Source: Mucilaginibacter sp. JRF
Lineage (GTDB): Bacteria; Bacteroidota; Bacteroidia; Sphingobacteriales; Sphingobacteriaceae
Assembly (NCBI RefSeq): GCF_015223065.1
Contig: NZ_JADFBY010000002.1
Location: 186,001-250,000, forward strand
DNA: 64,000 nt
Direction: 5' to 3'
Of the stretch, positions 7,467-32,090 are shown in pieces; position 1 is the stretch's first letter; each line of letters opens with the position of its first letter. The translations under genes were made by a program, and so were the position numbers. The notes below the pieces were generated by a model. The model did not search any database. It saw only the letters and a list, made by a program, of their open reading frames with translations, and had not been told where the DNA came from.

Positions 7467-8086
7467 GCCAACCCGCTGTAAAGGCACTCTTTCTTGACCT
7501 CGGCGGCGTATTCCTGACCAATGGTTGGGATCGCAATTCCAGACAAAAAGCCGCCGAGGCTTTTTCGCTCGATTTTGCCGATATGAATGAGCGCCATCGC
7601 ATAATTTTTGATGCCTACGAGGCCGGTAAAATGACGCTTGTTGAATACGTTAACCTGTTGGTTTTCCATCAGCAACGCGATTTTACACCGCAGCAGTTTA
7701 TTGATTTTATGTACGAGGAATCAGCCCCGTATCAGGATATGATCGATCTGGTTTGTCGTTTAAAGAAAAAATATAACCTCAGAACGGTGGCCGTTAATAA
7801 CGAAGGCCGTGAATTGAATGAATACCGTATAGATAAGTTTGGTCTTACGGGCTGGATAGATATATTTGCTTCATCGTGTTTTGTGCATACCCGCAAACCC
7901 GATAAAGATATTTACCTTTCCGCGCTCGACCTATCGCAGGTAAAGCCCGAGCAGGTGATATATATTGACGACCGTAAGGTATTTACAGAAGCGGCCGCGG
8001 CGCTGGGTATACGGGGCATACATCATACCAAATTTGAAACAACAAAACAGGCGCTTGCCGAATTTGGCTTAATTGAAACACTTTAA
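7463..8086 (+). CDS. HAD-superfamily phosphatase, likely sugar-phosphate phosphatase
   Basis: A 207-aa haloacid-dehalogenase-like hydrolase. Motif I is LFLDLGGVFL (Asp near residue 11, second Asp position occupied by Gly, as in YihX-type phosphatases). Motif III is the Lys in TRKPDKDIY and motif IV is IDDR near residues 168-171. It overlaps tal by 4 bases and sits inside the pentose phosphate operon, so a sugar phosphate is the most likely substrate. Exact substrate not determinable here. Confidence 0.88.
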   Translation: MSQPAVKALFLDLGGVFLTNGWDRNSRQKAAEAFSLDFADMNERHRIIFDAYEAGKMTLVEYVNLLVFHQQRDFTPQQFIDFMYEESAPYQDMIDLVCRLKKKYNLRTVAVNNEGRELNEYRIDKFGLTGWIDIFASSCFVHTRKPDKDIYLSALDLSQVKPEQVIYIDDRKVFTEAAAALGIRGIHHTKFETTKQALAEFGLIETL

Positions 8087-29649: not shown

Positions 29650-29679
29650 TTGATTTGATAAATGTTAGTTGTATACTTG
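29650..29679 (+). promoter_or_regulatory. Promoter of the tRNA leader
   Basis: TTG at 29650-29652, 19 bases, then TATACTTG at 29672-29679 (one mismatch to TAnnTTTG) fits the Bacteroidota housekeeping promoter. Transcription would begin at about 29683-29687, essentially on the ATG of the leader ORF, so the message would be leaderless or nearly so. Confidence 0.65.
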
Positions 29680-29683
29680 CAGC

Positions 29684-29740
29684 ATGAAAACAACAACAAT
29701 ACAATGTGCTATACCCCAACTGAGTGATCAGAGAGGATAG
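29684..29740 (+). CDS. Leader peptide of a putative tRNA-operon attenuator
   Basis: An 18-codon ORF encoding MKTTTIQCAIPQLSDQRG. Codons 6-12 are ATA CAA TGT GCT ATA CCC CAA (Ile, Gln, Cys, Ala, Ile, Pro, Gln). Six of the seven specify amino acids of the four tRNA genes starting 86 bases downstream. The last two codons and the stop (AGA GGA TAG) contain the 5' arm of an antiterminator, so a ribosome reaching the stop would mask it. This is the geometry of classical ribosome-mediated attenuation. Translation is not proven; the regulatory reading is inference from sequence layout. Confidence 0.6.
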   Translation: MKTTTIQCAIPQLSDQRG

Positions 29741-29785
29741 GCTATGTATTGACTAAAAAATAAGAAAATACTTTAAAATCCTCTT
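29731..29785 (+). promoter_or_regulatory. Candidate antiterminator hairpin
   Basis: AGAGGAT (29732-29738) is perfectly complementary to ATCCTCT (29778-29784), extendable by a G-U pair. A nested stem GTATT (29746-29750) with AATAC (29767-29771) lies inside. The 3' arm is the left arm of the terminator stem, so the two structures exclude each other. Confidence 0.6.
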
Positions 29786-29807
29786 AGTTCATCTAAGGGG
29801 ATTTTTT
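29775..29807 (+). terminator. Rho-independent terminator between the leader and tRNA genes
   Basis: AAAATCCTCTTAG (29775-29787) pairs with CTAAGGGGATTTT (29793-29805) around TTCAT with one U-G wobble, followed by a T run to 29807. It ends 18 bases before the first tRNA and would stop transcription unless the antiterminator forms. Confidence 0.8.
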
Positions 29808-29825
29808 GTTTTAGGGAGTTTTTTC

Positions 29826-29899
29826 AGGGTAGTATATCAATTGGTCAGATTACCACATTTGGGATGTGGAGGCTCCCGGTTCGAGTCCGGGTTACCCTA
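29826..29899 (+). tRNA. tRNA-Pro (UGG), divergent
   Basis: A 74-base cloverleaf. Acceptor AGGGTAG/TTACCCT, discriminator A, no encoded CCA. Anticodon stem CCACA/TGTGG with loop TTTGGGA gives anticodon TGG. T arm CCCGG/CCGGG with TTCGAGT loop. The D stem is weak (TATC/GATT, three good pairs). First gene of a four-tRNA cluster. Confidence 0.85.
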
Positions 29900-29911
29900 C
29901 AGTAATTAAAT

Positions 29912-29984
29912 GGAAATATGGCTCAATGGTGAGAGCAACACCCTTATACGGTGCCGGTTACAGGTTCAAGTCCTGTTATTTCCA
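29912..29984 (+). tRNA. tRNA-Ile (UAU), unusual anticodon
   Basis: A 73-base cloverleaf. Acceptor GGAAATA/TATTTCC, discriminator A. D stem GCTC/GAGC is perfect. Anticodon stem ACACC/GGTGC has one mismatch at its base, with loop CTTATAC giving anticodon TAT, which reads AUA as Ile. T arm ACAGG/CCTGT with TTCAAGT. Bacteria usually read AUA with a CAT-anticodon tRNA modified to lysidine, so a UAU tRNA is unusual. Confidence 0.75.
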
Positions 29985-29992
29985 CAAATAAA

Positions 29993-30064
29993 GGTCGGTT
30001 GCCCGAGTGGTAAGGGTATCCTCTGCAAAAGGATCGTTCACAAGTTCGAATCTTGTACCGGCCT
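29993..30064 (+). tRNA. tRNA-Cys (GCA)
   Basis: A 72-base cloverleaf. Acceptor GGTCGGT/ACCGGCC with one wobble. Anticodon stem ATCCT/AGGAT, loop CTGCAAA, anticodon GCA. T arm ACAAG/CTTGT with TTCGAAT. Discriminator T (U73), an identity element of tRNA-Cys. The D stem is short (CCC/GGG). Confidence 0.88.
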
Positions 30065-30077
30065 CCGTGTTTTAAAT

Positions 30078-30148
30078 TTTTCTGTGGTGCAATGGTAGCA
30101 CGTCTGATTTTGGTTCAGAAGATCGTGGTTCGAGTCCATGCAGAAAAA
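30078..30148 (+). tRNA. tRNA-Gln (UUG), divergent
   Basis: A 71-base cloverleaf. Acceptor TTTTCTG/CAGAAAA is very AT-rich. D stem GTGC/GCAC, anticodon stem TCTGA/TCAGA with loop TTTTGGT giving anticodon TTG. T arm CGTGG/CCATG with TTCGAGT. Variable loop of four bases, discriminator A. Confidence 0.85.
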
Positions 30149-30177
30149 CATTTTTTTGAAAATTCAGGTCACCCCGC

Positions 30178-30285: not shown

Positions 30286-32061
30286 CTATACCATAGCGTG
30301 CAACTGTGCCTCGCAGGTTTGCAGCATGGCTTGCATCTCCTGCAAATATTCGCGGGTTTGGTTGCTTATTTGCGGTATCAGCCCTTTGTAATAGTCGATG
30401 CCTTGTTGCAATTGCTGCCTAAATTTATCTAAGTACTTTTCCTTTTTGCTGTTTATGTTATTTACCGAGCGGGCTACTTCCTTATTCAGATAATCAATAT
30501 ACAGGTTAAGCTCGTTGATGAACAGGTTGGGGCGGCTTACATTCTTCAACAGGTTTAGCTTGCCGTAAATATGCTTCACCATTTCATCTAAGGAGTACGT
30601 CGCTTTAAAATAAGCCAGGTTAGGGCCGGGGCAAATGGCTACGGCCTTGTTTTCGCGCGGTTTGAGGATGTCGTTTTTAATATAGGCCGATACCGCTAAT
30701 CCTTCGCAAAGGCATACCTTTTCGGTTACTTCCCTTATCTGATGGGTTATCTTATCAATCGGCAGATCGGAGGCCATCAGCTGCTCAATTTTAAGGTGCT
30801 GATACTGGCGCGATGCCGTACATATTGGCTCGCTGGTGAATTCGGTATTGGTACACAAATACTTTTTAGTACACGGGCTACCCGGCCGATGGGCCATTAT
30901 GCGTTTTAAGCGTAACTGCTGTATACCTGCCGGTCTGAAATTATTGAACAATACCCCCAGAGGTGATGCCGCGCTCACGTAAAAATCATCGGGATGGGCA
31001 TTAGTAAGTTGGTGTAGTGTTTCTTCATCCACATTGGTAGCCTCGGGTACTAACAAAAACGGACTACCCCAGCCGGTAGCATCCAGCGCGTAATGATCTA
31101 ATAAAAAACTATTTTCGGCAGCGGTGCCTATACCACCCTGCACACTTACGCGGATAGATGGATTATTTAGGGTATGATAACCCTTGCCATTCAGCGCATG
31201 CAAGTATATCTGTTGCAGTTCATCAAACATGTCCTGTCGCTTTTCGCTAAATTCCTGCAAAATGGGGCCAAGCAGCAAACCATCGGTAGCAAAGGCATGG
31301 CCGCCGCAGTTAAGACCCGATTCGATACGGAATTCATGCACCCATATACCTTTTTTAGCCAAAAACTTAGCCTGTATCAAAGCCGACCGGTAATCGCTCA
31401 CCTTCAGTATCACCCGCTTACGGATATTGCCATCCTCATCCGGAAAAAAATCCCTGAACTGTTCGAGGTAGCTATACAGCCTCGGGTTCATCCCTGCCGA
31501 TAATACCACTGAGCCATGTACAGCACTTTGGGCAAAGCCACGCAGGGCGGCAAGCGCATCGGTATTCATATCTCCGGTTGGCTGGCCATCCTTATCATAA
31601 TTCATCTTATCAACCTTAGCCATAATATTTACATCAATGCTGCCGGGCTGCATTTGGCAGCGTAGCTGTTGCTCTAACCTGTGCTTAAGTTCAGCATCGT
31701 CTGTTTGCTGCATCAGCGTATATTTTTGTTTGAGGCGCGAGCCATCGGGCAGCATATCAAAATAACGGTCAATATCGTGCCCCTCATTAAATGGCTGTTG
31801 CTTTATGGCTACCATTTGCAGGTTAACATAAGTGTTCAGCATATCCAGGTAGGCCGTAATGCGGCGGGCGCGGTAATCGTGCTCGGTTTTATGGATGGGG
31901 ATGTACTCATCATTATGCTCGCGGATGTGGAATTCACGCATGCGTTCCGTAAGCTCATCATCAACTATTGAAACTACCGATGATATACCATAACGTGCCA
32001 CCTTTAGCGGCGTATCTATTGAAAAGGCCAGTCCTAAAACCGGGATATGGAAGTTGTGCAT
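30286..32061 (-). CDS. Uncharacterised conserved protein, possible TIM-barrel flavoprotein
   Basis: A 591-aa protein of unknown function. The frame extends to a TTG at 32088, but ATG at 32061 (MHNFHIPVLGLAFSIDTPLK) is the natural start. Segments such as GLNCGGHAFATDGLLLGPIL and SVQGGIGTAAENSFLLDHY followed by GWGSPFLLVPEATNVDE recall the glycine loops and phosphate-binding region of nitronate monooxygenase or glutamate synthase FMN barrels. Several Cys cluster later (SPCTKKYLCTN, EPICTAS, VCLCEGLA) and may bind metal or an Fe-S cluster. A coiled-coil-like C-terminus follows. Fold assignment is tentative. Confidence 0.7.
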   Translation of the reverse strand: MHNFHIPVLGLAFSIDTPLKVARYGISSVVSIVDDELTERMREFHIREHNDEYIPIHKTEHDYRARRITAYLDMLNTYVNLQMVAIKQQPFNEGHDIDRYFDMLPDGSRLKQKYTLMQQTDDAELKHRLEQQLRCQMQPGSIDVNIMAKVDKMNYDKDGQPTGDMNTDALAALRGFAQSAVHGSVVLSAGMNPRLYSYLEQFRDFFPDEDGNIRKRVILKVSDYRSALIQAKFLAKKGIWVHEFRIESGLNCGGHAFATDGLLLGPILQEFSEKRQDMFDELQQIYLHALNGKGYHTLNNPSIRVSVQGGIGTAAENSFLLDHYALDATGWGSPFLLVPEATNVDEETLHQLTNAHPDDFYVSAASPLGVLFNNFRPAGIQQLRLKRIMAHRPGSPCTKKYLCTNTEFTSEPICTASRQYQHLKIEQLMASDLPIDKITHQIREVTEKVCLCEGLAVSAYIKNDILKPRENKAVAICPGPNLAYFKATYSLDEMVKHIYGKLNLLKNVSRPNLFINELNLYIDYLNKEVARSVNNINSKKEKYLDKFRQQLQQGIDYYKGLIPQISNQTREYLQEMQAMLQTCEAQLHAMV

Positions 32062-32090
32062 ATTAATAAGGGAAAAATTGTTATTCAATA

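Follow-up and report, generated by a model that had tools for sequence, protein, structure and literature searches.

A putative leader-peptide attenuator of a spare tRNA operon in Mucilaginibacter and related bacteria

Described systems and the Mucilaginibacter locus

The expression of bacterial transfer RNA (tRNA) is usually viewed as tied to growth rate and not to the need for a given codon. In the leaders of the trp, his, ilv and phe operons, a short open reading frame (ORF) with control codons is combined with alternative stems and a terminator, and transcription reads through when the ribosome stalls. T-box riboswitches sense the charging of tRNA and control transcription by means of a terminator and an antiterminator. 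The present analysis concerns a locus of Mucilaginibacter sp. JRF (GCF_015223065.1; genome size 4.9 megabases) in which a short leader ORF and a terminator precede four tRNA genes. It lies in a stretch of 64,000 nucleotides (contig NZ_JADFBY010000002.1, positions 186,001 to 250,000 of the forward strand), which as a whole is called the window and whose own numbering is used below. T-box riboswitches bind tRNA directly and employ no leader peptide, whereas here a leader peptide is encoded and no T-box was matched. As in the operons governed by ribosome-mediated attenuation (PMC1183508), there is a leader ORF with control codons, together with alternative stems, an intrinsic terminator and predicted read-through on stalling. 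Unlike in those operons, tRNA genes would be regulated and four to six unrelated amino acids would be sensed at once, the codons co-evolve with the tRNA set, and the start is nearly leaderless.

Other described systems share single components with this locus. The trn operon of Anabaena is a silent extra tRNA operon that is induced by translational stress and co-regulated with rtcB (PMC10272220). It comprises 26 tRNAs under a DNA-binding repressor, TrcR, whereas control of the present locus would be exerted in cis and be codon-specific; the main text of that report does not use the terms 'attenuation' or 'leader peptide'. The rtcBA/Rsr RNA repair operon is switched by damaged tRNAs through RtcR (PMC7790460) and has in common with the present system RtcB, Ro60/Rsr, RNA repair and, presumably, a tRNA-damage signal. 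There, however, a protein regulator acts and repair enzymes are made, whereas here lost decoding capacity would be sensed and replacement tRNAs made. Jumbo phages carry spare tRNAs and the repair enzymes RtcB and RlaP against tRNA-cutting nucleases; this pairing of spare tRNAs with RNA ligases is similar, but leader peptides are not mentioned in the relevant passages of that report (PMC7824862). No account of a leader-peptide-controlled tRNA operon was found among the listed papers of the open-access literature on attenuation, leader peptides, RNA repair and spare tRNA operons. What appears to be new is that parts acting like those of the trp and his attenuators would have as their regulated product the tRNA that reads the control codons.

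We consider it highly probable that the locus is a ribosome-mediated transcription attenuator governing a set of spare tRNA genes, the natural signal most likely being a loss of tRNAs. Its features are as follows; the promoter and the ORF were read from the sequence, and the tRNAs were identified with both ARAGORN and Rfam.

29650-29679, plus strand: promoter of Bacteroidota type, TTG (29650-29652), a 19-base spacer and TATACTTG (29672-29679)
29684-29740, plus strand: leader peptide ORF from ATG to TAG, 18 sense codons, MKTTTIQCAIPQLSDQRG
29697-29703, plus strand: arm 1, CAATACA, pairing with 29745-29751; the helix is kept, with changes, in relatives
29699-29719, plus strand: control codons 6-12, ATA CAA TGT GCT ATA CCC CAA (Ile Gln Cys Ala Ile Pro Gln)
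29720-29731, plus strand: small hairpin CTGA-GTGA-TCAG, between the control codons and the antiterminator arm
29732-29738, plus strand: putative antiterminator arm AGAGGAT, complementary to ATCCTCT at 29778-29784
29745-29751, plus strand: arm 2, TGTATTG, paired with arm 1 in the form that terminates
29775-29805, plus strand: intrinsic terminator AAAATCCTCTTAG-TTCAT-CTAAGGGGATTTT, followed by TTGTTTT; 13 pairs, loop of 5
29826-29900, plus strand: tRNA-Pro(UGG), extra copy; a second Pro(UGG) gene lies elsewhere in the genome
29912-29985, plus strand: tRNA-Ile(UAU), direct reader of AUA
29993-30066, plus strand: tRNA-Cys(GCA), extra copy; the genome has three other Cys(GCA) genes
30078-30149, plus strand: tRNA-Gln(UUG), extra copy; another Gln(UUG) gene lies elsewhere

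The promoter, the 18-codon ORF, codons 6-12, the AGAGGAT/ATCCTCT pairing and the four tRNAs agree base for base with a preliminary description of the locus, and the terminator, given there as 29775-29807, comprises 29775-29805 plus the T tail. The consensus of Bacteroidota promoters is TAnnTTTG, and transcription is expected to start at or beside the start codon of the leader, which would make the ORF nearly leaderless. A TTG ending 4 bases 5' of the start codon is conserved in at least 90% of 81 aligned leaders; it is lacking in five tandem leaders, in the second copy of each, and in L080 and L119 (L numbers designate individual loci). Taken by themselves, scans for promoters and terminators found about as many as chance predicts (4 where 4.1 are expected, and 2 where 1.9 are). 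The fold of the window leader is better than that of 199 of 200 dinucleotide shuffles (z -3.9). The codon match noted in the preliminary description exceeds chance, in that only 8 of 200,000 nucleotide shuffles of the ORF placed at least six Ile, Gln, Cys or Pro codons at positions 6-12 with all four present, and 38 of 200,000 gave an equal match in any stretch of seven codons; stronger support comes from the relatives described below. Since the anticodon of the tRNA-Ile is UAU, both ATA codons of the leader are matched exactly. Against Rfam, the leader gave matches below threshold only and no known RNA family, leader families included, at the cut-off; a T-box was not matched at the cut-off anywhere in the window, nor below the cut-off in the leader.

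In the proposed mechanism, RNA polymerase would start beside the start codon of the leader and a ribosome would follow. When the tRNAs for Ile-AUA, Gln, Cys and Pro are plentiful, this ribosome would reach the stop codon and cover AGAGGAT and TGTATTG, the terminator would form, and the tRNAs of the array would not be made. Scarcity of any one of these aminoacyl-tRNAs would stall the ribosome on the corresponding codon, so that arm 1 is masked and AGAGGAT is left free to capture ATCCTCT before the right arm of the terminator is transcribed. With ATCCTCT captured, the polymerase would read through and the missing kinds of tRNA would be produced. If no ribosome is present, arms 1 and 2 would pair, making termination the default.

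Control codons vary with the tRNA genes behind them

Relatives of the leader were collected with a DNA search and then with a covariance model (R1) built from 29 leaders. R1 matched 66 of 149 genomes of the genus, or 65 after removal of one false positive, and 63 of 399 genomes drawn from the family, false positives included, with Pedobacter and Hufsiella among them. The 400 genomes drawn from the order returned the same set and two more Pedobacter genomes, and the exact terminator pattern, applied to a collection of species genomes, added Chitinophaga barathri with two tandem leaders. Tandem leaders before or between tRNAs are also found in Pedobacter (L115, L116, L117, L203 and L204). The counts below refer to 75 leaders at 72 loci in 70 genomes; ten of 85 model matches (L112-L114, L120-L126) were left out. 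Two of these, L120 and L121, resemble remnants (a terminator without an ORF; an ORF fused to the 3' end of a tRNA), while the other eight had no tRNA called downstream and were taken as false positives. Matches to the terminator pattern in Saprospiraceae, Polaribacter, Elizabethkingia and other unrelated genomes had neither a leader nor a called tRNA. A phage, viral or plasmid origin found no support: one exact terminator pattern was matched in two viral contigs, both lacking leader and tRNA, and blastn of the locus returned only short matches (two plasmid and seven phage records), which lay on tRNA genes where these records are annotated.

The whole family shares one order, namely promoter, start codon about 4 nucleotides on, ORF, alternative RNA pairings, terminator and tRNA array. 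The preliminary description had staked its reading beforehand on homologous loci, and in these the ORF is open in 75 of 75 leaders (15-23 codons; start codon ATG in 74 and GTG in one) and its codons vary in step with the tRNAs, even when shared ancestry is corrected for. For this comparison a tRNA was counted as intact when it scored at least 50 with profiles made from the arrays themselves; the control stretch is too short in L109, and codons 5-13 were fixed as the stretch in L107, L108, L110 and L111. Where tRNA-Cys is intact, 39 of 39 leaders have a Cys control codon, as against 2 of the 36 other leaders (Fisher p 2.5e-19), both exceptions (L108 and L119) having arrays reduced to one tRNA. 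The corresponding figures are 12 of 12 versus 20 of 63 for Phe (p 8.6e-6) and 55 of 55 versus 14 of 20 for Gln (p 1.9e-4). Pro codons (66 of 68 with the tRNA, 6 of 7 without) and Ile codons (69 of 70 and 5 of 5) hardly vary, so that neither provides a test of covariation.

Relatedness was taken into account on a tree from which the control codons had been left out and on which tRNA-Cys and the Cys codon each changed 13 times. With both traits simulated independently along this tree, the observed link was reached in 7 (Cys), 51 (Phe) and 28 (Gln) of 200,000 simulations; with the codon alone simulated, it was reached in 0, 45 and 6 of 200,000. These simulations were run because a strict test on independent pairs is underpowered: typically, five of six pairs changed in the same way for Cys, none in the opposite way and one showed no difference, and 1.9 of 4 (Phe) and 2.1 of 7 (Gln) pairs changed in the same way with none opposite. 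The link is strongest in the reading frame of the ORF. For Cys, the link in frame 1 ran the opposite way (p 7.8e-5) and frame 2 gave p 1; the values for frames 1 and 2 were 0.0051 and 0.31 for Phe and 0.012 and 0.068 for Gln, frame 1 being positive for both. For each of Cys, Phe and Gln, no other residue of the 20 shows as strong a positive association with the tRNA as the cognate one.

Individual arrays follow the same rule. All 135 Ile control codons that precede a tRNA-Ile(UAU) are ATA, and L079, the sole array with Ile(GAU), has one ATA plus one ATT, a codon found before no other array with an Ile gene. Where tRNA-Phe is present and the Gln gene is a remnant (L026), the leader reads ATA TTT TGC TTT ATA CCC AAA; many arrays lacking Cys have an IQIQLPQ leader; and L109, an array of Pro(CGG) and Gln(CUG), uses CAG and CCG. 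From codon 6 on, 405 of 543 control codons correspond to a tRNA kind present in their own array.

Alternative pairings and a divergent locus in another family

Structure was assessed on alignment A3, the 81 leaders mentioned above (the 75 plus six from L154, L203 and L204). CAATACA at 29697-29703 and TGTATTG at 29745-29751 form a classical '1:2' arm overlapping the control codons. The 1:2 stem, the small hairpin and the terminator together hold 58 cells changed on both sides (16.3 +/- 7.4 in shuffles; 0 of 500), 38 of which belong to one hairpin pair at which T-A (42 leaders) and C-G (36) are exchanged, and the pairing of all three elements drops when they are slid. The terminator is the best conserved element, with 99.7% of cells paired and 3 of its 11 pairs changed on both sides. 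Among leaders with an inserted TGT codon, free placement recovered re-invented 1:2 stems, such as TATGTATACA/TGTATATATA and AATATGTA/TATGTATT; in L010, L088, L096, the second leader of L204 and the first of L154, it gave only 5 pairs. For the antiterminator AGAGGAT/ATCCTCT, 89.1% of cells are paired. The expectation that stem changes would be compensated in relatives is borne out jointly for the terminator, the small hairpin and the 1:2 stem, but not for the antiterminator or for the nested helix discussed below.

The effect of a ribosome was modelled by folding the RNA from 13 nucleotides past the first base of the A-site codon, a distance in keeping with the ribosome footprint. With the ribosome at codon 12, the free RNA of every one of the 81 leaders takes the left arm of the terminator with 5 or more pairs, compared with 1058 of 1620 when the upstream sequence is shuffled, and the antiterminating window has a median of -12.4 kcal/mol against -6.1 for the shuffles. 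With the ribosome at the stop codon, the stretch up to the left terminator arm has a median of 0.0 kcal/mol and the terminator one of -16.5. The putative antiterminator is placed right for exposure by a stalled ribosome, and an equivalent of different letters is found at the following locus.

A second model (R2), built from the 81 leaders, was run over 395 genomes of the class. Its best match outside the genome of the window, L206 (E value 8.9e-4), comes from another family. This locus comprises tRNAs Pro(UGG), Gln(UUG), His(GUG) and Leu(UAG), a terminator-like stretch, tRNAs Arg(ACG) and Phe(GAA), and a gene for RtcB. The matching part of its leader reads LHFIQPQQLRPQ, and its ORF, VKNM-ILHFIQPQQLRPQ-SEEGDNYA, starts with GTG 4 nucleotides after TATCTTTG. 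From CTA to CAA, 11 of 12 codons belong to the six tRNA kinds of the array and all six are present, a match reached in 1 of 20,000 nucleotide shuffles for a 12-codon stretch that was picked after seeing it; R2 had been built from leaders only and was blind to these tRNAs. Both the 1:2 stem (GATTCTA/TAGAATC) and the antiterminator (AAGGGG/CCCCTT) differ in letters from those of the family, and in the folding model the antiterminator forms with the ribosome at codons 6, 9, 12, 14 and 16 and is lost at codon 18. The claim of the preliminary description, that a ribosome stalling at codons cognate to the tRNAs would turn on their transcription, is supported by the covariation, the compensated stems, the shuffles and L206.

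Of the 37 places listed for R2 in the class besides that of the window, L206 among them, 29 were examined, and all of these except L206 (the 28 places L207-L234) had no tRNA called on the strand of the match. No second copy of L206 was found in its genus, family or order, each represented by the same 7 genomes; six further weak matches there (L236-L241) lack an array, and a single tRNA-Lys lies more than 1 kilobase (kb) from its match. Within L206, a weaker second R2 match with a strong terminator stands between tRNA-Leu and tRNA-Arg (L206:2123-2296), so that the second half of this array may have an attenuator of its own.

Spare tRNAs, RNA repair and the nature of the signal

The array tRNAs are extra copies and are often decaying. 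The genome of the window gave 45 tRNA matches, and the array genes differ from their other genomic copies, with identical alignment columns numbering 51 of 78 for Pro, 48 of 73 for Gln and 51 of 74 for Cys (one of the three other Cys genes). Among the ARAGORN calls there is no second UAU tRNA, and the CAU tRNAs are three distinct ones, of which one is probably the usual reader of AUA. In relatives, decayed array members are common: Cys, Gln, Phe or Pro remnants below 50 bits occur in L009, L012, L013, L021, L026, L027, L084, L099, L105 and others. In genome G048, which has no leader by R1, remnant Pro and Ile genes are shortened, and the Gln gene lacks a proper ARAGORN anticodon, yet scores 62.8.

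Genes for Ro60/TROVE, RlaP and RtcB are among the neighbours of the arrays, as is KptA in L244. Of the 65 Mucilaginibacter genomes with the leader, at least 26 have a TROVE or RtcB gene no more than 5 kb away from it and at least 35 have one no more than 25 kb away, the chance expectation for such nearness being, by a rough estimate, about 2-3% per genome. TROVE is present in 38 of 65 genomes with the leader and 14 of 84 without (p 1.3e-7), and RtcB in at least 57 of 65 and at least 30 of 84 (p 6.5e-11), both comparisons ignoring relatedness and incompleteness of genomes; the RtcB count covers 87 of the 93 tallied RtcB genomes.

Because more tRNA cannot cure a lack of amino acids, the natural signal is most likely tRNA loss, as by ribotoxin or phage-related nuclease cleavage, and the finding that the arrays are spares, often near RNA-repair genes, likewise points to loss or damage over plain amino-acid shortage. 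The shortage sensing proposed in the preliminary description is retained as sensing of particular tRNAs, and the signal is recast accordingly. We lean, with some reserve, towards a new class of Bacteroidota RNA-repair system, encoded beside RtcB, Ro60, RlaP and KptA, in which the leader, its codons sampling the endangered tRNA species, would be a codon-resolved detector of tRNA loss that releases replacements for exactly the lost species. RNA-repair clusters would then gain a replacement arm beside the ligation arm, and the cell would have a new way to notice and replace missing tRNAs, for instance after tRNA cutting. The loop would be closed, since lack of a tRNA would cause a pause on its own codon and the pause would turn on its own gene, with several tRNAs served by one leader. 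The text of the leader would also record which tRNAs are attacked by the enemies of the host, such as anticodon nucleases and phages: Pro, Ile-AUA, Cys, Gln and Phe in Mucilaginibacter, and Pro, Gln, His, Leu, Arg and Phe in the lineage of L206. The covariation of codons and tRNAs across genomes makes the claim directly testable and predicts which tRNAs each lineage must defend, and the leader may offer a portable, codon-programmable sensor of tRNA shortage.

Since a stalled ribosome cannot tell an uncharged tRNA from an absent one, and since the leaders of amino-acid operons share this architecture, the same attenuator might by nature answer amino-acid starvation as in trp, his and ilv, the spares enlarging the pool. 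This appears doubtful, because amino-acid shortage is not relieved by extra tRNA, four to six unrelated amino acids would be sensed together, and RNA-repair genes lie near many arrays; moreover, the long ORFs beside the array of the window are on the other strand, so that apparently no biosynthetic gene is co-transcribed directly behind it. We regard as unlikely a general sensor of translation stress, in which slow or drugged ribosomes on the leader would cause read-through and codon identity would matter little. Modelled stalls do free the antiterminator at codon 12 in the 81 leaders and at codons 6 to 16 in L206, and the role would be comparable to that of the chloramphenicol-induced trn operon of Anabaena, where a spare tRNA operon and rtcB are co-controlled and induced by translation inhibitors (PMC10272220), but the control codons track the tRNA set closely and in frame, with tRNA-Cys and the Cys codon changing 13 times each on the tree.

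The array RNAs might instead be decoys, or ligands of Ro60 in the manner of Y RNAs, made when translation fails and not used in decoding. Ro60/TROVE genes nearby, the many decaying members and the A1-U72 pair of the array tRNA-Pro, unlike the housekeeping C1-G72, are in line with this; most array tRNAs, however, have ordinary ARAGORN anticodons, with which Rfam agrees for the window, and decoys would not need leader codons that follow tRNA identity, all of which renders the idea improbable. Hardly tenable is an untranslated terminator that ends a small RNA or blocks read-through into the tRNAs with an incidental ORF, since, even though no element is better conserved than the hairpin and tRNA-Pro follows it after only about 20 bases, the ORF is open in 75 of 75 leaders, TGT is gained in frame and codons covary with tRNAs, and no promoter fits, by eye, in the 20 bases 3' of the terminator, so that without read-through the tRNAs would be silenced.

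Several observations weigh against attenuation triggered by tRNA loss. About a quarter of the control codons from codon 6 on (138 of 543) have no tRNA of the same kind in the array, and the Phe codon persists in the 20 leaders counted above that lack an intact tRNA-Phe. Pedobacter leaders keep AGC TTT (or AAC TTT, AGC TAT or AGT TTT) with no Ser or Phe tRNA called. In six of nine Gln(CUG) arrays (L005, L008, L023, L029, L075 and L080), CAA is the only Gln control codon, which counts as a mismatch because CUG should not read CAA; over all CUG arrays the share of CAG is 8 of 21, versus 18 of 102 for UUG (p 0.07). TGT or TGC outside the control stretch, and hence uncounted, occurs in L013, L089, L109, L110 and L111, whose arrays have no intact tRNA-Cys. 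In the strict pair test, the number of supported pairs does not suffice for significance. Within the family (81 leaders) the antiterminator is conserved without covariation, and the nested helix of the preliminary description, GTATT (29746-29750) with AATAC (29767-29771), is present in the letters of the window but not conserved in relatives (74.0% of cells paired; structure no better than in shuffles). The genome of the window has no TROVE match and its RtcB gene is on another contig, and tRNA damage as the natural trigger, although probable, is something that we infer.

Some minor observations concern the tRNAs and their surroundings. The array tRNA-Pro (29826-29900) begins with A1-U72 in place of the C1-G72 of the other Pro genes, an exchange that might affect charging under the identity rules of this tRNA. 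The three further tRNA-Cys(GCA) genes of the window genome (L062, L068 and L073 of G000) differ in sequence and bring the total to four. Dead copies, consisting of terminator or tRNA remnants without the leader ORF and with Pro and Ile ruined, are seen at L157 (reverse strand, 7700-7990) and at G048:C8 (L248). Outside arrays, L140, L176 and L178 contain what appears by eye to be a tRNA-Phe-like gene, immediately followed by a terminator of the same sequence type (ATCCTCTTAG...CTAAGGGGATTTTT). The array of the window is adjoined by an ORF of 600 amino acids (30286-32088, minus strand), whose 591-residue form matched no Pfam family at E 0.001. In L243, an ORF resembling a regulator with WYL and WCX domains (L243:12822-13868; Pfam) is divergent to rtcB with one small ORF between them, and ORFs of similar N-terminal sequence, likewise divergent to rtcB or an rtcB-like ORF, are found at L244:4720-5772, L245:2936-3994 and L246:792-1850.

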